Positions 15,117 to 24,344 of a stretch of 28,314 bases of DNA are shown in pieces. The DNA is taken from positions 1-28,314 of IMG/VR virus record IMGVR_UViG_3300020162_000716. The stretch is one strand, 5' to 3'. Source of the DNA: a virus. How positions within the stretch are numbered: position 1 is the first letter of the stretch; the number at the start of each line of letters is the position of its first letter. The notes beneath the pieces are model-generated. The model was not told the DNA's origin, did not search any database, and worked only from the letters and a program-made list of their open reading frames with translations. A program made the translations under genes and the position numbers.

Positions 15117-15851
15117 ATGAAAGATTGTTTAAGCGAGCTAGTAGCACATACTCAAGTATTGGGTAACATCAGTTTTGTTAAAATTACCGGTACCGAAGAG
15201 TCAACTGTTATAGAATCACTTAGTGATGACAAGGCAGTTATTATCCAAGGAAAATACAAAAATCCCATTGCAGATTTTATTGGTGTGTTTGGTTTCCCTA
15301 ACTTAGGCAAATTGAACATTGTTCTTAACATTCCTGAATATGCTGAAAATGCAAAAATTTCAGTAACTACTAAAACACGCAATGGTGAAACTGTACCATC
15401 AGGATTACATTTTGAAAACAAAGCTGGTAACTTTAAAAACGATTATCGTTTTATGACAACAGAAATTGTTAATGAAAAACTTGGTGAATTGAAATTTAAA
15501 GGAGTAAAAAAATGGAACGTTACATTTACTCCATCAGTAACTGGCATTCAAAAGTTTAAGTTCCAAGCTCAAGCAAATTCAGAAGAGCCATATTTCATTG
15601 CCAAAACGGAAGACAAGCATCTAAAGTTTTACTTTGGTGATCCTGGTAGTCATGCTGGTAATTGTATTTTTGAACCCAACGTGACAGGTACATTGGCTAA
15701 AGAATGGAATTGGCCAGTTAAGCCAGTTATTGATATCCTTAATATTGTTGGTGATAAGACCATGATGATTAGCGATGAAGGTGTTCTGCAAATTACTGTA
15801 GATAGTGGTGTTGCAGAATACAATTACTTCTTGCCAGCGCAAATTAAATAA
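15117..15851 (+). CDS. 45: Sliding clamp, gp45-like DNA polymerase processivity factor
   Basis: A 244-residue protein with the size and strand pattern of a T4-type sliding clamp (gp45, 228 residues), the trimeric ring that tethers polymerase to DNA and also activates late transcription. Recognisable parts are ADFIGVFGFPNLGKLNIVL in the first domain and the C-terminal strands VLQITVDSGVAEYNYFLPA. The start at 15117 is preferred over 15105 because GGAG lies six bases upstream. It follows the polymerase and methyltransferase genes and has its own candidate promoter; the next start codon overlaps its stop by one base. The assignment rests on these segments and on gene order. Confidence 0.72.
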   Translation: MKDCLSELVAHTQVLGNISFVKITGTEESTVIESLSDDKAVIIQGKYKNPIADFIGVFGFPNLGKLNIVLNIPEYAENAKISVTTKTRNGETVPSGLHFENKAGNFKNDYRFMTTEIVNEKLGELKFKGVKKWNVTFTPSVTGIQKFKFQAQANSEEPYFIAKTEDKHLKFYFGDPGSHAGNCIFEPNVTGTLAKEWNWPVKPVIDILNIVGDKTMMISDEGVLQITVDSGVAEYNYFLPAQIK

Positions 15852-17458
15852 TGAGTCAAACTGAACACAACCCTGCTGTACCTGAGCCAACCATTGACGA
15901 TTTAACAGCAAAACAGAAGGATTATGCAATCTTTCTGCCAGCAATTAGTGGTTTTTATAGCGGATATGTAGGCAAACAGCGCCATTCTAAACACATTGAG
16001 GATGAACGTATACCTACAGGGTTTGAGAATGGTATCGAGGGGTTAAATTTTCTAAATCCCAAAGAAGCCTACTTTCCTTATAAGTGGGGATTGTATAGTG
16101 CAGGGCATGCCAACTTGGATACTGCTAAGTTTGATCCCAAAGAAGATATGATTCGTAACCGTGACCCTGGTAGTTTTATATTGGGTGATAGCGGAGGGTT
16201 CCAGATTGGTAAGGGTGTGTGGGAAGGTGATTGGCGTGCCGGAAGTGGCTGTGCCAAAGCGCATAAAAAAAGAACTCAAGTATTAGACTGGATGGAAAGT
16301 TACATGGACTATGGCATGACATTGGACGTGCCAGGTTGGGTATCTAGAACTCCGTCTGGTGTTACCGCCACCAAGATTTCCAGTTATGAAGAAGCGGTTG
16401 AAGCCACCAAATATAACTTTGAATATTGGCTTAAAAATCGTCGTGGCAATTGCAAATTCCTAACAGTATTGCAGGGTGATAGTCACACTCAAGCTGATCA
16501 GTGGTATGCTGAGATGAAACAGTTCTGTGATCCAAAAGTTTTCCCCAATGATCACTTCAATGGTTGGGCCATGGGATCACAAAACAAATGTGATGCTCAC
16601 TTGGTACTAAAAAGATTGGTTACGCTAATATATGACGGCTTGTTGGAAACTGGCAAACAGGACTGGGTACACTATCTGGGCACAAGTAAACTGGAATGGG
16701 CAATGATGTTCACTGACATCCAACGTGCGATACGTAAAAATTATAATCCCAACTTTACTATTAGTTTTGACTGTGCATCACCATTCCTAGCTACCGCTAA
16801 TGGACAAGTGTATGACGAGAACCGGTTGGAGAATCGCGGTAATTGGGGATATCATATGACCAAAGCCGTAGATGACAAGAAGTATGCACATGATAACCGA
16901 TTGTTTAGAGATGTCATATTGACTGAAAAGATAAACGGCAAGATTGCCAAGACGTTTATTGACAGCCCTATTATGCAACGTACTAAAATTAGTGATGTTT
17001 GCTGGTATGCTCCGGGCGATCTAAATAAGATCAAGAAAGAAGGCAGAACATCTTGGGATAGTTTCAGTTACGCTATATTAATGGGACATAATGTTCATGC
17101 TCATATTAAATCAGTCCAAGATGGCAATGAAAAATATGCCAGTGGGACTATTCCAAAGTCGTTGGTGAAGGAAGAACATGATCGCGTATATTTCCGCGAA
17201 TTGGTTGACGCAATTTTCAGCGCACCAAGTTATGCTACGGCTTGGGAATTGGCCACAGATCCATTCTTGGACAGATGGTGTACTAAAGTAATAGGCAGCA
17301 GTGCCAATGGATTTATAGGCAAGAAGGCAATTAATGCTTCTACTAAGTTTGACGAACATTTTGAATTTACCACGGTTACTGCACCAGAAACAAACGAAGA
17401 TGGTCTAAATTTGGCTAAATTAGAAAAACTAGAACAGATTGAAGAAACAAACAGTTGA
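15851..17458 (+). CDS. dpdA: TGT-like DNA 7-deazaguanine transglycosylase, DpdA type
   Basis: A 535-residue homologue of tRNA-guanine transglycosylase in the branch (DpdA) that exchanges guanine for a 7-deazaguanine in DNA. It carries the active-site D113-SGGFQ (113-118), the QGD turn (208-210), FNGWAMGS (236-242, matching the TGT G-G-L-A-V-G region), HYLGTSKLEW (274-283), and ISFDCASP with D307 at the place of the catalytic nucleophile. The C-x-C-x2-C-H zinc site of bacterial TGT is not visible. Phage genes for FolE, QueD and QueE, which make the base precursor, lie within 8 kb downstream; that context favours DNA over tRNA as the substrate. The start overlaps the clamp stop by one base. A tRNA-directed role cannot be fully excluded. 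Confidence 0.83.
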   Translation: MSQTEHNPAVPEPTIDDLTAKQKDYAIFLPAISGFYSGYVGKQRHSKHIEDERIPTGFENGIEGLNFLNPKEAYFPYKWGLYSAGHANLDTAKFDPKEDMIRNRDPGSFILGDSGGFQIGKGVWEGDWRAGSGCAKAHKKRTQVLDWMESYMDYGMTLDVPGWVSRTPSGVTATKISSYEEAVEATKYNFEYWLKNRRGNCKFLTVLQGDSHTQADQWYAEMKQFCDPKVFPNDHFNGWAMGSQNKCDAHLVLKRLVTLIYDGLLETGKQDWVHYLGTSKLEWAMMFTDIQRAIRKNYNPNFTISFDCASPFLATANGQVYDENRLENRGNWGYHMTKAVDDKKYAHDNRLFRDVILTEKINGKIAKTFIDSPIMQRTKISDVCWYAPGDLNKIKKEGRTSWDSFSYAILMGHNVHAHIKSVQDGNEKYASGTIPKSLVKEEHDRVYFRELVDAIFSAPSYATAWELATDPFLDRWCTKVIGSSANGFIGKKAINASTKFDEHFEFTTVTAPETNEDGLNLAKLEKLEQIEETNS

Positions 17459-17483
17459 TAGTTTTGCTTATTCACTATATACT
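17455..17483 (+). promoter_or_regulatory. Sigma70-like promoter for the modification operon
   Basis: TTGATA (17455-17460), 17-base spacer, TATACT (17478-17483). The -35 hexamer contains the stop codon of the transglycosylase gene. The transcript would begin near 17490, about 20 bases before the next start codon, and could cover the closely packed genes up to 22387. Confidence 0.65.
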
Positions 17484-17509: not shown

Positions 17510-17998
17510 ATGAACGATAACATTATATCAATTATGGATCAACGTAAAGCCGCATTACTTGAAAAATCTTCTCAGATTAGAGGATCAGCAAAGAAGATGA
17601 TTTGGGTGACTTTTGCTCTTGAGGGGATGCATAAGTACCCACAAGCATTGGAGGATCCTGCTCTTGCAGAAGTTAAATTTTTGGGTTACCCTCATCGTCA
17701 TATGTTCCATTTCCGGGTGTGGATTCAGGTCTTTCATGAAGACCGAGATATTGAATTCATCTTGTTCAAACGCTGGTGCCAGTCCTTGTATACCAGCAAC
17801 AATTCCGGTCTACCGGAAGGAATTTTAGAGCTGAATAATCAAAGCTGTGAAATGCTAGCTGATCAGCTCTATTCAAAGATCACTGACCGATATCCAAATA
17901 GAGATGTTTGGGTTGAAGTAAGTGAAGATGGTGAAAACGGATGTTATGTGGAATACAATATCCCAGACACTAATGCACCAAAATTTAAATCCTATTAA
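17510..17998 (+). CDS. T-fold-like protein (possible QueD/PTPS relative), function unknown
   Basis: A 162-residue protein that I cannot name with certainty. Its layout follows the T-fold of QueD and 6-pyruvoyl-tetrahydropterin synthase: a strand WVTFALEGMHKYP (32-44), a histidine-rich H62-R-H-M-F-H67 followed by a long strand FRVWIQV, the turn DRDIEFILFKRW (78-89) corresponding to the family DF-x-x-LK, a helix after SCEMLAD (112-118) corresponding to P-T-S/A-E-N-L-A, and a final VWVEVSED (133-140) corresponding to V-x-V-x-E-T. The catalytic cysteine and the D-H pair of QueD are not evident. It is the first gene after the promoter next to the transglycosylase. A role in making or altering the deazaguanine is inference. 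Confidence 0.6.
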   Translation: MNDNIISIMDQRKAALLEKSSQIRGSAKKMIWVTFALEGMHKYPQALEDPALAEVKFLGYPHRHMFHFRVWIQVFHEDRDIEFILFKRWCQSLYTSNNSGLPEGILELNNQSCEMLADQLYSKITDRYPNRDVWVEVSEDGENGCYVEYNIPDTNAPKFKSY

Positions 17999-18018: not shown

Positions 18019-18207
18019 ATGTCGCAACCAGCTTGGATTAAAAAATACCTTGTAATGAAACCTGAGGTTACAAAACTATTCGAAGCGATTGAAGCATATC
18101 ATAATTATTGTAGGTGGGAGTTGTTGCCGTATAACCCAGCTGATGTAAACAATATGCGTAGTCAAAACTGGAAAAACTACCTAAAGTCTCAACAGAAAAC
18201 CAGATAA
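18019..18207 (+). CDS. Small conserved phage protein (62 aa)
   Basis: A 62-residue protein with an aromatic, basic composition (W-I-K-K-Y-L near the start, YHNYCRWELLPYNPAD in the middle, NWKNYLKSQQ at the end). A good AAAGGAAG ribosome site lies upstream, and its stop codon overlaps the start of the glycosyltransferase gene by one base. No function is known to me. Confidence 0.7.
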   Translation: MSQPAWIKKYLVMKPEVTKLFEAIEAYHNYCRWELLPYNPADVNNMRSQNWKNYLKSQQKTR

Positions 18208-19277
18208 TGCCTACACTATTCATTGTTCCCATAGAACCTATTGATCAACGCTACACTAAACAGTGGTTTGACAATATACCGGTTCTAATTAAACGGCGGG
18301 CAGTGGAAAAGAACATTAACTTATCTATTGTTAATGTTGCTGGCAGGGAAAGCACCGGTGGAACAACCGCCGGCGCTTTTCTAGACTTTTCTACAACCAA
18401 CGCATATAAAGCCAGTCAAGTTGAATTTATCAGCCAGATGTTTCAACGTGGTGAAGTAAAACCAGGTGACAAATTCCTAGTAACAGATGCTTGGAATTTT
18501 GCTATCACAGCAATTAAATATCAAAGTGATTTGTTGGATATACCAGTAGAGATACATGGTATATGGCATGCTGGTGCATACGACCCCAGTGACATATTAG
18601 GTATGAAGATGCAAAAGCCTTGGCCGTTTCATGCAGAACGTAGTTGGTATTACAGTTGCGATAAGAACTATTATGCTACCAATTTCCACCGTTCCATGTT
18701 CTTGCGTAACCTAGATATTTCGTATGAAGATGCTGGCCGTGCAGTAGTAAGTGGGCAACCACATATCAGCGTGATTGATCATTGCGGGCAGTATTTTGAT
18801 AATCCTAAAAAACAGATGTTAATTTGGCCACACAGATATAATGCCGACAAGCAACCAGAGATTATTGAAGATCTTAAAAATGAGTTAACTTGTGATGTAG
18901 TGATTACACAAAAAGCTAATCTCAATAAAGAACAATACTATCAAACATTAGGTAGTGCCGCGGCAGTATTTAGTTGTAGCCTACATGAGAATTTGGGTAT
19001 TAGTATGATGGAAGGTTGTTTGGCTGGTGCTATCCCTATTGTACCAGACAGATGCAGTTATAAAGAAATGTATTTGCCAGAGTTTAAGTATCCCACGGAA
19101 TGGACTAGTAGCATTGAGTCTTACAACAAGCATAAAAATAGTTTGTTGGGATTTATTGCAGAGCGGGTTAATAGACCCAGTGCCTATGCCAAAGCAATGC
19201 AAGAGCAAATACAAATTTTAAAAACTGATTACCTAAATGCTAATGTAATGTTTGACAGTATATTAAATTTAAGTTAG
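18207..19277 (+). CDS. Glycosyltransferase, GT-B fold (group 1 type)
   Basis: A 356-residue glycosyltransferase of the GT-B type, which transfers a sugar from a nucleotide-sugar donor. The C-terminal domain has the donor-site signature: WPHRYNADKQP (207-217), then VFSCSLHENLGISMMEGCLA, in which E261 and E269 form the EX7E motif of retaining enzymes, followed by GAIPIVPD. The N-terminal acceptor domain begins at the first strand LFIVPIEP and includes VTDAWNFAI. Start and stop of neighbouring genes overlap or abut, so it is co-expressed with the T-fold-like protein and FolE. In T4, glucosylation of a modified base protects DNA; here the acceptor could be a deazaguanine, a virion protein or a host glycan. 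The enzyme class is clear, its acceptor is not. Confidence 0.75.
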   Translation: MPTLFIVPIEPIDQRYTKQWFDNIPVLIKRRAVEKNINLSIVNVAGRESTGGTTAGAFLDFSTTNAYKASQVEFISQMFQRGEVKPGDKFLVTDAWNFAITAIKYQSDLLDIPVEIHGIWHAGAYDPSDILGMKMQKPWPFHAERSWYYSCDKNYYATNFHRSMFLRNLDISYEDAGRAVVSGQPHISVIDHCGQYFDNPKKQMLIWPHRYNADKQPEIIEDLKNELTCDVVITQKANLNKEQYYQTLGSAAAVFSCSLHENLGISMMEGCLAGAIPIVPDRCSYKEMYLPEFKYPTEWTSSIESYNKHKNSLLGFIAERVNRPSAYAKAMQEQIQILKTDYLNANVMFDSILNLS

Positions 19278-19298: not shown

Positions 19299-19514
19299 GT
19301 GAAAAAATTAATACATGAAGTATTAGATACAAATAAATCAGTATACCAACTTTATGGCGAAGTAACTGACGGGGGGTTGCCAGGAGTTAAGCAGGTGGTA
19401 TTTACAACTAAATCATCACATAGCACTGTACCTAATGAAGAACAACGTTTGTGTTCGTTCTTCCTTCGGTCAGATGGAATTAAAAACTTACGTGACCTAT
19501 TGGAGAGTGCTTAA
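19299..19514 (+). CDS. Hypothetical protein (71 aa), GTG start
   Basis: A 71-residue protein that I do not recognise. It begins with GTG at 19299 behind AAGGGGA, and its stop overlaps the FolE start by one base. The middle holds YQLYGEVTDGGLPGVKQVVF and the end LRSDGIKNLRDLLES. The overlap and the ribosome site make it a credible gene; nothing shows its function. Confidence 0.65.
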   Translation: MKKLIHEVLDTNKSVYQLYGEVTDGGLPGVKQVVFTTKSSHSTVPNEEQRLCSFFLRSDGIKNLRDLLESA

Positions 19515-20251
19515 TGGCTAATGAAGTAACACTTGCTAACATAGACGACAATGGCTACGAAGTGGGATATTTGGGAGACGCTATTCGCTTTAAAATGAAA
19601 CGTGACAAGAAACGTTTTTGGGCGGGAGATAACATTAGCGATTATTTGCACGAAGGCGATAAAGAAAAACTAATTGCAGAAGCGTCAGTAGCATTTGAAC
19701 GAGTGTTAGATACATTACTTATTGATCGCGAAAACGACCCTAATAGTCGAGGTACTGCCAGACGATTAGCAAAGATGTATTTTAACGAAGTCATGGCTGG
19801 TAGATATGACCCAATTCCAGGTGCTACTGCTTTTCCAAATGATAGTGAGGATCGTTATGAGGGTATGCTTGTTGTCCGTAGTGAGTTACGAAGCATGTGT
19901 AGTCATCATCATCAGCCTGTATCTGGTATTGCTTATATTGGTATCATTGCCGCTAATAAATTAATTGGTCTCAGCAAGTATACCAGAATAGCACAGTGGT
20001 GTGCCCGACGCGGCACTTTACAGGAAGAACTTACCAATGACATTGCACGAGAAATAATGAAGGCTACAGCAAGCGAAAATGTTGGTGTTTATATCCAAGC
20101 CACGCATGGTTGCTGTGAGAATCGTGGTATTATGGCACACAGTAGTCTTACACAAACAACAGTATTAAAAGGTGCATTTCATAACGATATGGGAACCAAG
20201 AAAGAATTTATGGACAATATCAAACTACAGCAAGACTTTGCTCAGAGGTAA
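19514..20251 (+). CDS. folE: GTP cyclohydrolase I
   Basis: A 245-residue GTP cyclohydrolase I (FolE), which converts GTP to 7,8-dihydroneopterin triphosphate, the first step of folate, queuosine and phage 7-deazaguanine synthesis. The catalytic region is intact: C129-S-HHHQP with zinc ligands, IGLSKYTRIAQWCARR (151-166), LTNDIA, and THGCCENRGI (197-206), which supplies the second zinc cysteine. Residues 1-45 are a phage-specific extension before the helical N-terminal domain. The gene is embedded in a run of overlapping genes with a phosphoribosyltransferase immediately downstream. With QueD and QueE in the same region, its product most likely feeds base modification. Confidence 0.92.
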   Translation: MANEVTLANIDDNGYEVGYLGDAIRFKMKRDKKRFWAGDNISDYLHEGDKEKLIAEASVAFERVLDTLLIDRENDPNSRGTARRLAKMYFNEVMAGRYDPIPGATAFPNDSEDRYEGMLVVRSELRSMCSHHHQPVSGIAYIGIIAANKLIGLSKYTRIAQWCARRGTLQEELTNDIAREIMKATASENVGVYIQATHGCCENRGIMAHSSLTQTTVLKGAFHNDMGTKKEFMDNIKLQQDFAQR

Positions 20252-20814
20252 TGATGACAAAGATCATTGAGATTGATTACAAAAAGACGTTGGGATTAAT
20301 AAGCGATTTATGTAGACAGATTACTATAAGTGATTGGAAACCCGACTACATTGTGGGTATATCACGCGGTGGGTTAATGCCAGCGGTATACATGAGTCAT
20401 TATTTTAATTTACCAATGCATACGTTAAAGGTTACATTGCGTCATGAATCAGAAGATACTGAAAGCAATCTTTGGATGGCGGAAGAAGCTTTTGGATACG
20501 TAGAGCAACGAGATCGTGATGAGGATGTGTCCTGGACTGATTTTAATAAACGTAAAAACATTCTAATTGTGGATGATATCAATGATACTGGTGCCACATT
20601 CAATTGGATTAAAAATGACTGGGAAAGCGGGTGTATGGGAACCGTTGCCACTGATATTTGGCAGGAGATCTGGGCAACCAATGTAAAGTTTGCGGTATTG
20701 GTAAACAACGAGGCCAGCAATTTTAAAGAAGTTACGTATGCCGCCAAAGAGATTAATAAACATCAAGACCCATCCTGGGTTGTATTTCCTTGGGAAGAGT
20801 GGTGGATGCGATGA
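20251..20814 (+). CDS. Phosphoribosyltransferase
   Basis: A 187-residue type I phosphoribosyltransferase. The PRPP-binding loop is clear in ILIVDDINDTGATF (about residues 109-122), and the strand-turn IVGISRGGLMPAVYMSHYF near residue 34 forms the pyrophosphate loop. These enzymes join a purine base to ribose phosphate using PRPP, or break the bond. The substrate loop (residues about 60-100) differs from named purine salvage enzymes. Between FolE and a MazG-like gene, it may act on guanine released by the transglycosylase or on a deazaguanine base; ordinary xanthine/guanine salvage is equally possible. It starts with ATGATG one base inside the FolE stop. Confidence 0.8.
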   Translation: MMTKIIEIDYKKTLGLISDLCRQITISDWKPDYIVGISRGGLMPAVYMSHYFNLPMHTLKVTLRHESEDTESNLWMAEEAFGYVEQRDRDEDVSWTDFNKRKNILIVDDINDTGATFNWIKNDWESGCMGTVATDIWQEIWATNVKFAVLVNNEASNFKEVTYAAKEINKHQDPSWVVFPWEEWWMR

Positions 20815-21087: not shown

Positions 21088-21528
21088 ATGTGGGAACTAC
21101 TATATTTTTTAATGTGGACTTGCTGGTTATACTGGGCACATCGTCTTGGACACATTATACCGGGAATTAGGCAGATACATAACCATCATCACCGATATAT
21201 TTCTACACATACTCCACCTCAATGGAGTTGGAATAACTTATTATTGTTTAATGACAATTGGATGAGTACGTTGGATTGGTGGTTTACGGAGGTAATTCCC
21301 ACTGTAATCTTTTGTTTAATAACTGGGCAATGGTGGATAGCAGTATTTCATTATGTCTACTCAGCAACGGTACAAGAACAAACAGAACACAATCCCACGT
21401 TCTCTTTGTATCCATGGCTATCTGCTGGCAAATGGCATCTACATCACCATTTAAATGATGCAACAAAAAACTTTGGGCCATTTATCGTCATTTGGGATAA
21501 AGTTTTTGGGACTGCGGCTCGTGGTTAA
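21088..21528 (+). CDS. Fatty acid hydroxylase/sterol desaturase-like membrane protein
   Basis: A 146-residue integral membrane protein with the histidine clusters of the fatty acid hydroxylase superfamily: H18-x3-H22 (HRLGH), H31-x-HHH (31-35) and H117-x-HHH (117-121). These clusters bind a di-iron centre that hydroxylates or desaturates lipids. Hydrophobic stretches at about 1-16 and 66-92 give two or three membrane passes. It is shorter than cellular enzymes (about 200-300 residues), but the three His clusters and the terminal NFGPFIVIWDKVFGT are intact. It lies in the same packed operon as FolE and the PP-loop gene, with start and stop overlaps, so it is expressed early with them. A role in the host membrane lipid is likely; the substrate is unknown. 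Confidence 0.78.
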   Translation: MWELLYFLMWTCWLYWAHRLGHIIPGIRQIHNHHHRYISTHTPPQWSWNNLLLFNDNWMSTLDWWFTEVIPTVIFCLITGQWWIAVFHYVYSATVQEQTEHNPTFSLYPWLSAGKWHLHHHLNDATKNFGPFIVIWDKVFGTAARG

Positions 21529-22387
21529 TGTAGGATATCAAAATTGGTTGCAAACCAATTTAACCGTTGGCTCTATGGACAATGTAACAACCCCATTTAA
21601 CGCAACGTTTAATATTGAGAGCCCAGTATCCACCATGAGTTTTAATGATGCAGCCGACTACACTGCAAATTTAATAGCCCACAAATATACCAACTTACAC
21701 TTGTGTTTTAGCGGTGGTTTAGATAGTGAATATGTCGCCGCAGTGTTATGTCGCAACGAGATACCGTTTACACCAGTTATATTGCTAACCCCCAACAATG
21801 CTGAGATTTGGTATGCTTTCAAATTTTGCAAATTTAACAATCTAACCCCGGTAGTATTTGATTTCTCTAGTAAAACTGGATTAACAAATAACTTCTCTCA
21901 GATATTGCTCAACGCATATCAGATTGCTAGCACACTAAAATTGCCAATTGAGGAAGCATTGATATCAAATATTGTGTCTAAGTTATTGCCAGATTCATCT
22001 GCTACCGTGATAACTGGCTGTGGAGAACCATTACGTATGTCAGATCATTTTAATGATCCAATGGGTGATGTATTTGAAATTTGGGATCGTGATTGTTATT
22101 TAAATCTGGAATATGGTGATCGGCATCCTGGTGCATTTTTTACGTTCACTCCTGAGATCTTCAAGGCCATGATCACTGACATCGATTGTACCTTGAACAG
22201 CCAATTAGCCAAATCCAAGTTGTATAATTTATCAGAACGAGCCAAGAGCTATTCTGTTTTTGGTTATCACAAAAGTACCCTGGCACATGAACAAAGTTAC
22301 TTAGGTAGTCTCAACAAAAAGTTTTCTCGAGAAGAACATTTAAAATATATCAGTTTTAGTAGACAACAACTATTAGATATGTTATAG
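21521..22387 (+). CDS. PP-loop ATPase-like protein, noncanonical (QueC-like role possible)
   Basis: A 288-residue protein with an N-type PP-loop: LCFSGGLDSEYVAAVL (SGGLDS at about residues 64-69), which binds ATP and adenylates substrates in QueC, asparagine synthetase and NAD synthetase. Residues 85-120 (FTPVILLTPNNAEIWYAFKFC) fit the following Rossmann-like strands. The QueC zinc motif (C-x-x-C pairs near the end) is absent, so it is not a standard preQ0 synthase; an asparagine-synthetase-like amidation is another reading. The ATG at 21455 would lie deep in the preceding gene; GTG 21521 overlaps that gene's stop by eight bases and is preferred, with ATG 21575 as alternative. Its place between FolE and QueD makes a step on the carboxyl group of CDG an attractive but untested idea. 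Confidence 0.68.
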   Translation: MVNVGYQNWLQTNLTVGSMDNVTTPFNATFNIESPVSTMSFNDAADYTANLIAHKYTNLHLCFSGGLDSEYVAAVLCRNEIPFTPVILLTPNNAEIWYAFKFCKFNNLTPVVFDFSSKTGLTNNFSQILLNAYQIASTLKLPIEEALISNIVSKLLPDSSATVITGCGEPLRMSDHFNDPMGDVFEIWDRDCYLNLEYGDRHPGAFFTFTPEIFKAMITDIDCTLNSQLAKSKLYNLSERAKSYSVFGYHKSTLAHEQSYLGSLNKKFSREEHLKYISFSRQQLLDML

Positions 22388-22482: not shown

Positions 22483-22959
22483 ATGGCAAAATATATCAGT
22501 ACTAAAACCTATACGCATCTTGGTCCGGTTGCATACAGACAATGGAGAGCAGACAGTCATTGTAATCAGATTCATGGGTATGCACTATCATTTCACTTTG
22601 AGTTTGAATGTGATACGCTAGATGCACGTAATTGGTGTATGGACTTTGGTGGGCTTAGTCCACTTAAAGAAAAATTAGAAGATTGGTTTGATCATACATT
22701 ACTAGTAGCACAAGACGACCCCCAACGTGATGCATTGTTGAATTTGGGTAAACTTGGACTGGCCAAGATCACAGAGGTAGAAAAAACTGGATGTGAAGGA
22801 TTATCAGACTTTCTTTACGAATACATCAACACTATATTCCTACCTGATTATGGCAGAGCCGAAGCAGATCGTGTTTGGTGTTGTAAGGTAGAAGTACGTG
22901 AAACTAATAGCAATATGTCCATGCGAATTGGTCACAGAGAAGATCGAGAGTTTGAATAA
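22483..22959 (+). CDS. queD: 6-carboxytetrahydropterin synthase-like (QueD)
   Basis: A 158-residue QueD-type T-fold enzyme, expected to turn dihydroneopterin triphosphate into 6-carboxytetrahydropterin. Catalytic features are present: C27 in HCNQIHGY, the D70-H71 pair in WFDHTLLV, and E140 in VEVRETNSN. The metal site is unusual: the HGH of standard QueD is H31-G-Y33, and the early AAH histidine is missing, replaced by a region with RQWRADSH; H26 or H38 might take over. Other phage and bacterial proteins share this RQWRA-SHC-HGYAL pattern, so it is a real subgroup, not decay. The gene starts a second packed run that includes QueE. A different reaction on a pterin-like substrate remains possible. 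Confidence 0.83.
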   Translation: MAKYISTKTYTHLGPVAYRQWRADSHCNQIHGYALSFHFEFECDTLDARNWCMDFGGLSPLKEKLEDWFDHTLLVAQDDPQRDALLNLGKLGLAKITEVEKTGCEGLSDFLYEYINTIFLPDYGRAEADRVWCCKVEVRETNSNMSMRIGHREDREFE

Positions 22960-23164: not shown

Positions 23165-23487
23165 TCAGATATTTGTGGAGCATGGTAATGAAATGGGGTT
23201 GGGATTTTGGCAAGGAAGACGGCAGCCGAAAGGCAAAAGGTGATAATGTGCTGGCTGAGTACCCCCAAACTATGAAGTTAAGGGCAGAGCCTGAGCGTTT
23301 TTCAACTCATGGTATGACATTCACAATATATGCAGCCAACGGTGGGCATGTGGTAGAATTTCGTAGTTACGATCCCAGCACTGATCGCTCAGTCAGCAGT
23401 ATGCATGTTATACCAGAAGACCAAGAGTTTTCAGATACGATATCCAAGATAGTAACATTGGAGTGTTTAAGGGGAATTAGACGATGA
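23161..23487 (+). CDS. Conserved phage protein (108 aa)
   Basis: A 108-residue protein of unknown function. The conserved core is FTIYAANGGHVVEFRSYDPSTDRS followed by a MHVIPEDQEFSDTISKIVTLE helix, a domain that recurs in aquatic phages, usually near the QueD/QueE genes or small membrane proteins. ATG 23161 overlaps the previous stop (ATGA) and its own stop overlaps the QueE start (ATGA). The start at 23062 would lie inside the membrane protein gene and is rejected. Confidence 0.7.
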   Translation: MIRYLWSMVMKWGWDFGKEDGSRKAKGDNVLAEYPQTMKLRAEPERFSTHGMTFTIYAANGGHVVEFRSYDPSTDRSVSSMHVIPEDQEFSDTISKIVTLECLRGIRR

Positions 23488-24344
23488 GTAAAATTAAAAT
23501 CGCAGAGTTGTTTTATAGTATCCAGGGAGAAGGCCGATATATGGGAGTGCCCAGTGTATTCTTACGTACATTTGGTTGCAATTTTACGTGTGCTGGATTT
23601 GGTATGCCACGCGGCGAGAAAAGCCCAGAAGCAGAACGTATTGTAGAACTTAACGGATTTAATCCATACAAAACATATAATGAATTACCGTTAGTCAGCA
23701 CAGGTTGTGACAGTTATGCTAGTTGGCATCCAGAGTTTAAACACCTTAGCCCAATGCTAACTACAGATGCTATCGCACAACGTATTATGGAAATCCTTCC
23801 TCACAAAACTTGGCAAGATGAGCATCTTGTTATTACTGGTGGTGAACCTTTGCTGGGTTGGCAACGTGCTTACCCAGACCTATTGGAACATCCCAGTATG
23901 GATGAACTAAAAGAGATTACATTTGAAACCAATGGTACTCAAAAGCTAACACCAACGTTTAAAGAATATTTGGATCAATGGTGTAGTGCTAACCATCATC
24001 TTGATAGAGAAATTACATTTAGTGTGAGTCCCAAACTCAGTGTTAGTGGTGAGAATTTAGAAGAATCTATTTGTCCTGAGATTGTATGTGATTACGAATC
24101 TGTTGGATATACTTATTTAAAATTTGTTGTAGAAACAGAGGCAGATGCTGAAGAAGCCGCATATGCTACAGAATCATATCGTGCAGCAGGATTTAAAGGT
24201 CCAGTTTACTTGATGCCTGTGGGTGGAGTTGAAAGTGTATATAGTCTGAACAATCGTAGAGTAGCAGAGTTGGCAATGAAGATGGGTGTACGTTATAGCG
24301 ATAGACTCCAGGTTCCACTTTTTAAAAACGCATGGGGAACTTAA
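23484..24344 (+). CDS. queE: 7-carboxy-7-deazaguanine synthase (QueE)
   Basis: A 286-residue radical SAM enzyme of the QueE family, which contracts 6-carboxytetrahydropterin to 7-carboxy-7-deazaguanine. Signature elements are FYSIQGEGRYMGVPSVFLR (10-28), the cluster cysteines C32, C36 and C75, ITGGEPLLGWQ (SAM-binding GGEP), ETNGTQ, SVSPKLSVSGE and the C-terminal PVYLMPVGG. The cluster motif is unusual: CX3C is followed by 38 residues before the third cysteine, while standard QueE has CX3CX2C. Related phage and bacterial enzymes share this insertion. It is translationally coupled to the gene upstream. Together with FolE and QueD it gives the complete route from GTP to CDG. Confidence 0.92.
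   Translation: MSKIKIAELFYSIQGEGRYMGVPSVFLRTFGCNFTCAGFGMPRGEKSPEAERIVELNGFNPYKTYNELPLVSTGCDSYASWHPEFKHLSPMLTTDAIAQRIMEILPHKTWQDEHLVITGGEPLLGWQRAYPDLLEHPSMDELKEITFETNGTQKLTPTFKEYLDQWCSANHHLDREITFSVSPKLSVSGENLEESICPEIVCDYESVGYTYLKFVVETEADAEEAAYATESYRAAGFKGPVYLMPVGGVESVYSLNNRRVAELAMKMGVRYSDRLQVPLFKNAWGT

Follow-up and report, generated by a model that had tools for sequence, protein, structure and literature searches.

A QueD-like T-fold protein of phage 7-deazaguanine gene clusters is a candidate 7-carboxy-7-deazaguanine decarboxylase

We propose that a widespread phage protein family, encoded beside genes for 7-deazaguanine synthesis and DNA transglycosylation, is an enzyme that acts on 7-carboxy-7-deazaguanine (CDG), most likely decarboxylating it to 7-deazaguanine for phage DNA; we put the probability of this reading at about 0.6. 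The family has the T-fold of QueD and a conserved residue set of its own, it accompanies transglycosylases of three divergent subfamilies, and full-length queC was absent from the family-bearing genomes that we tested. A family annotated as of 'unknown function' thereby gains a fold, a probable active site and a place in a pathway.

A T-fold family related to QueD

The gene of interest is an intact open reading frame of 162 aa in the 28,314-nt stretch of viral DNA analysed here (the window; Table 1). Its protein contains, in this order, HRHMFH (62-67), DRDIEFILFKRW (78-89), SCEMLAD (112-118) and VWVEVSED (133-140), which a first-pass annotation had singled out as landmarks ordered as in QueD. 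All four were found, and they are the best-conserved parts of the family. On their conservation among 80 homologues and in a diverse alignment of 17 members we reject a chance order.

The AlphaFold (AF2) model of the protein (pLDDT 85.9; input alignment of 64 sequences) has the beta-beta-alpha-alpha-beta-beta order of the T-fold/PTPS-QueD superfamily, with strands at 30-41 and 62-73, helices at 79-92 and 113-127, and strands at 133-139 and 143-149. It also has an N-terminal helix and short helices linking strands 1 and 2. The suspected T-fold is thus borne out by the prediction, for which the best Foldseek match in the PDB was Escherichia coli QueD (6-carboxy-5,6,7,8-tetrahydropterin synthase, 4ntk; E = 4.9e-5, prob 1.00, target TM 0.72, 20% identity). 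Lower-ranked PDB matches were other PTPS proteins, DHNA and, weakly, QueF-like proteins (5jyx/5k0p), all of them T-folds. The fold was seen by structure search only; when a sequence profile of the family was compared with PDB chains, no T-fold was found. Profile-profile comparison with phage QueD gave a match of 79% (E = 1.6e-5, 103 columns), in which SCE pairs with GCE and VSED with VRET.

Searches of Pfam and NCBIfam with the protein returned zero matches. PHROGs places it in phrog_17812 (E = 1.7e-32), the same family, to which it assigns no function; the fold, the conserved site and the genomic context are added here. The family is widespread in phages: we found relatives with significant similarity in 26 annotated phage records, members in 207 IMG/VR stretches in a first scan and at no fewer than about 600 IMG/VR loci in a scan with the diverse alignment, and further members on 11 MAG contigs. 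Two contigs bearing the family (L149 and L154) are binned with ammonia-oxidising archaea (Nitrosarchaeum and Nitrosotalea); they either belong to viruses of archaea or are phage contigs binned in error. In two phages the T-fold domain is C-terminal in a longer protein, following a part of unknown type in Vibrio phage Bakedbeans (L089:9221-10372) and an endonuclease VII-like part in MA9V-3 (L093:9473-10354).

A conserved site distinct from that of QueD

Fourteen residues (H41, P44, L58, H62, H64, F66, V74, H76, R79, E82, F83, C113, R131 and E139) are 100% conserved in 80 distinct homologues. His41, His62, His64, His76, Arg79, Glu82, Cys113 and Glu139 are also invariant in the separate, divergent 17-member set, as are Ser112 and Glu114, which reach 99% in the 80. 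The QueD site is built from zinc-ligand histidines and a substrate-binding Glu. In our model the histidines are placed where strand 1 ends and strand 2 starts, and Glu139 where strand 3 ends; these are the places of the QueD zinc ligands and substrate Glu as judged by secondary-structure position and sequence, not by coordinate superposition. A zinc-type triad (His41/His62/His64) and an anchor Glu (Glu139) are thus present throughout the 80 and the 17 members, as expected of the T-fold/PTPS-QueD superfamily. The family further resembles phage QueDs in the Cys-Glu that opens helix 2, and shares a gene cluster with QueD.

The differences from QueD are equally marked. The window protein lacks a Cys in the stretch from H41 to H62, and the family has no consistently conserved Cys column there (position 42 is Cys in 38%), leaving no equivalent of the QueD catalytic Cys27. 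The Asp-His pair D70-H71, invariant in phage QueD, has no counterpart in the family alignments either, confirming the earlier remark that these catalytic residues were not evident. His76, Arg79 and Glu82 are new invariant residues, identity to QueD is about 20%, and the protein occurs beside a true QueD. The conserved His/Arg/Glu/Cys set together with the loss of the QueD catalytic residues leads us to regard the protein as a distinct QueD paralogue with an apparent active site.

QueF and QueF-like proteins (nitrile reductase and archaeosine synthase) are also T-folds acting on 7-deazaguanines, but their structural match is far weaker than that of QueD, and QueF uses preQ0, a QueC-dependent substrate. 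The QueF motif is E(S/L)K(S/A)hK(L/Y)(Y/F/W); it is absent on inspection of the window protein.

The gene cluster and its transglycosylases

The window gene order is transglycosylase, T-fold protein, a 62-aa ORF, a GT4-like gene, folE, a phosphoribosyltransferase, a MazG-like gene, then queD and queE. Family members likewise accompany a transglycosylase within or close to folE/queD/queE clusters in phages of Pseudomonas, Acidovorax, Rhizobium, Sinorhizobium, Xanthomonas, Aeromonas, Vibrio, Synechococcus, Cellulophaga and Chryseobacterium.

Table 1. The 7-deazaguanine gene cluster of the window
Feature	Position	Strand	Remarks
TGT-type (DpdA-like) transglycosylase	15851..17458	+	DSGGFQ (D113), D159 and D307 invariant; close to the T-fold gene at most loci
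T-fold, QueD-like protein (phrog_17812 family)	17510..17998	+	His41/His62/His64, Glu139, His76/Arg79/Glu82, Cys113-Glu114; lacks QueD catalytic Cys and Asp-His pair
62-aa conserved ORF	18019..18207	+	Usually directly 3' of the T-fold gene; 67/80 loci
Putative GT4/GT-B-like glycosyltransferase	18207..19277	+	Pfam PF00534 only E = 0.014; PA5oct homologue E = 0.0011
folE, GTP cyclohydrolase I (pathway step 1)	19514..20251	+	PF01227 E = 1.2e-38
Purine-type phosphoribosyltransferase	20251..20814	+	PF00156 E = 9.8e-12; recurrent in cluster
True queD, apart from the T-fold protein	22483..22959	+	PF01242 E = 1e-14; phrog_2389; C27, D70-H71 and E140 kept
queE, 7-carboxy-7-deazaguanine maker	23484..24344	+	phrog_2076 E = 1.1e-50; TIGR03365

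The T-fold gene directly follows the transglycosylase gene in the window, as had been noted. The DpdA-like character of this neighbour is upheld by Foldseek, which matched its model (pLDDT 70, moderate) to TGT 5lpo with E = 6.4e-5 and prob 1.00, although with a target TM of only 0.42, and by a 94% profile match to DpdA2; the TGT fold and the active-site aspartates place it among the TGT/DpdA proteins. Pfam and NCBIfam, the Pfam TGT model included, miss nearly all of these transglycosylases. The 'good promoter' once seen in front of the T-fold gene (TTGATA-17-TATACT, 17455-17483) matches the sigma-70 consensus at 10 of 12 positions, but such matches are no commoner here than in shuffled sequence (3 found, 3.4 expected), and we attach no significance to it.

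Six phages with the T-fold family seemed to have no transglycosylase when searched with one DpdA profile and two other known families. When the proteins were compared all against all, each of the six proved to have a member of a short, divergent TGT-like family. We therefore distinguish three transglycosylase subfamilies: A (window, PA5oct, Phosso), DpdA2 (ACP17, X1, BUCT-ZZ01) and X (RHph_I1_18, Ahp1, Bakedbeans, D479, phiST, MA9V-3), the last being TGT-like by motif order and a weak DpdA2 profile match (74%). We equate phrog_10773 with DpdA2 on the strength of its best match, which lies beside folE and queC in KVP40, a relative of phage nt-1. DpdA2 itself was defined for nt-1 (PMC6884629). 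The X-type proteins are annotated as hypothetical (L092:12792-13580, L087:10423-11295, L086:12047-13336) and occur in all nine T-fold-family loci that have no other DpdA type; in the Rhizobium phage the protein carries a fused DUF3310 domain.

The anticipated link to DpdA-like genes in other phages holds across lineages. Of 60 contig segments no shorter than 18 kb, 59 carry a transglycosylase of one of the three subfamilies, as do all 15 genomes examined (those of 11 phages, and 4 long contigs, all with the family). These counts are to be read with the provisos that contigs are fragments, that a few recur across scans and that the genomes are related. With the same provisos, among the 68 loci of the first scan that extend 4 kb or more upstream, 66 have the window-type transglycosylase family. 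Conversely, the T-fold gene accompanies 23 of 25 transglycosylase genes that had at least 3 kb downstream or for which it had already been found.

A possible objection to an enzymatic role is that the T-fold protein is a dedicated transglycosylase subunit, or a non-catalytic protein that binds CDG or 7-deazaguanine and hands it to that enzyme. The two genes are near each other in most loci, T-fold proteins oligomerise, and the catalytic triad of QueD is gone. We nevertheless consider this quite improbable. The T-fold protein is found with three divergent transglycosylase subfamilies, and the exchange of the transglycosylase while the T-fold protein is kept makes a dedicated DpdA subunit unlikely; in Phosso the two genes are about 173 kb apart; and the invariant His/Arg/Glu/Cys set includes residues of metal- and substrate-binding type. 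Of the two roles originally suggested, action on the deazaguanine thus fits better than that of a structural partner.

QueC and QueD in the same genomes

None of the 15 genomes with the T-fold family, long contigs included, has a full-length queC; this absence applies to the genomes tested, the window being a fragment from which the queC content of its own genome cannot be judged. Weak partial matches to the QueC profile were seen in three of them (D479, X1 and G003). In contrast, four of five comparison phages without the family (KVP40, phi38:2, Lephleur and Aura) have full-length queC, and the fifth, Mendera, shows a partial match only. The difference (0/15 versus 4/5; Fisher p = 0.001) is a guide only, given the few comparison phages, chosen by queE, and the relatedness of the genomes. 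At the locus level the T-fold family was found in 0 of 16 queC loci, and queC in 0 of 171 T-fold-family loci.

Phages that encode QueE and lack QueC would be expected to take their own pathway no further than CDG, unless they draw on host QueC. The mutual exclusion of queC and the T-fold family might also mean that the T-fold protein replaces QueC, converting CDG to preQ0 or a 7-amido base by another route. QueC chemistry requires ATP, however, and the small T-fold shows no ATP-binding motif, so that we regard such a replacement as very improbable.

A true QueD is encoded alongside the T-fold family in 13 of the 15 genomes, and in the window; PTPS/QueD was not detected in the other two (G004, a contig, and D479). 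From the shared fold and these two genomes it could be argued that the T-fold protein is a QueD replacement, making 6-carboxy-tetrahydropterin by different catalytic residues. Since QueD coexists in the 13, its step is already filled, and C27 and D70-H71 are intact in the QueD that the window itself encodes; we give this reading a very slim chance and reject it. The window QueD has HGY for HGH, a Tyr replacing the third zinc His. Among 40 aligned phage QueDs this Tyr occurs in 82%, and C27 and D70-H71 are invariant.

A proposed step from CDG to 7-deazaguanine

A protein with a guanine-anchoring Glu and a His triad of metal-binding type, which occurs with any of three transglycosylases and not with QueC, is best read as an enzyme acting on CDG, with decarboxylation as the simplest and most likely reaction. 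FolE, QueD and QueE would convert GTP to CDG. The T-fold protein would bind CDG by two contacts, Glu139 gripping the guanine-like edge, and Arg79 and a metal held by His41/His62/His64 gripping the C7 carboxylate. Loss of CO2 and protonation of C7 by His76, Glu82 or Cys113 would give 7-deazaguanine, which the adjoining transglycosylase would exchange for guanine in DNA. We infer the metal binding, the substrate, the decarboxylation and the individual residue roles from computed data, namely the fold, the conserved residues, the neighbourhood, the transglycosylase co-occurrence and the lack of full-length queC in the genomes tested. Against CDG decarboxylation, these phages could borrow host QueC, and most loci have a GT4-like neighbour, yet 7-deazaguanine offers no hydroxyl to glycosylate.

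A phage CDG decarboxylase, DpdL, was reportedly predicted by Cui et al. in 2023, and the role proposed here is presumably the same. DpdL would be expected in CDG-making phages that lack QueC and insert the base by DpdA, and the T-fold family is indeed found with CDG-making genes and DpdA and without QueC. The likeness is one of pathway position, and we do not claim membership; our literature search found nothing mentioning DpdL together with 7-deazaguanine and phage.

The present reading predicts which phages have decarboxylated, QueC-independent 7-deazaguanine in their DNA, among them the isolates ACP17, phiST and PA5oct, and makes the question of a CDG decarboxylase directly testable.

A glycosyltransferase-like neighbour and other genes of the window

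The analysis also draws attention to a glycosyltransferase-like partner. Of 56 segments no shorter than 18 kb that have an A- or DpdA2-type transglycosylase, 55 carry the GT4-like gene, and this gene lies within 1.5 kb of the T-fold gene in 134 of the 141 loci having both. It was found in none of 15 cases with an X-type transglycosylase and in none of the 16 queC loci examined. The glycosyltransferase assignment is weak.

Plain 7-deazaguanine has no group (hydroxyl) to glycosylate, so either the glycosyltransferase acts elsewhere or the product differs in those phages. Accordingly, the T-fold protein might turn CDG, or a CDG base already in DNA, into another product, such as a 7-substituted base glycosylated by the GT4-like enzyme. 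The near-constant presence and proximity of that gene, and its absence from queC loci, favour such a product, but X-type phages share the T-fold protein without the glycosyltransferase, which argues that the T-fold step needs no glycosylation, and the assignment is itself weak; we think this reading unlikely. In its more specific form, in which the two genes are a module converting CDG to a new glycosylated 7-deazaguanine in the DNA of phages with two of the three transglycosylase subfamilies, we consider it more doubtful still.

The phosphoribosyltransferase recurs among folE, queE and queD genes, in queC loci too, and could serve in salvage of the guanine freed by the transglycosylase. A PP-loop ATPase-like protein (SGGLDSE) encoded at 21455-22387 has no Pfam or PHROG match; as a QueC stand-in it was rejected, being present in only 2 of 80 related loci. 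Farther away, the ORF at 832-2373 is homing endonuclease-like and sits between a tail-sheath fragment and a tail-tube gene.
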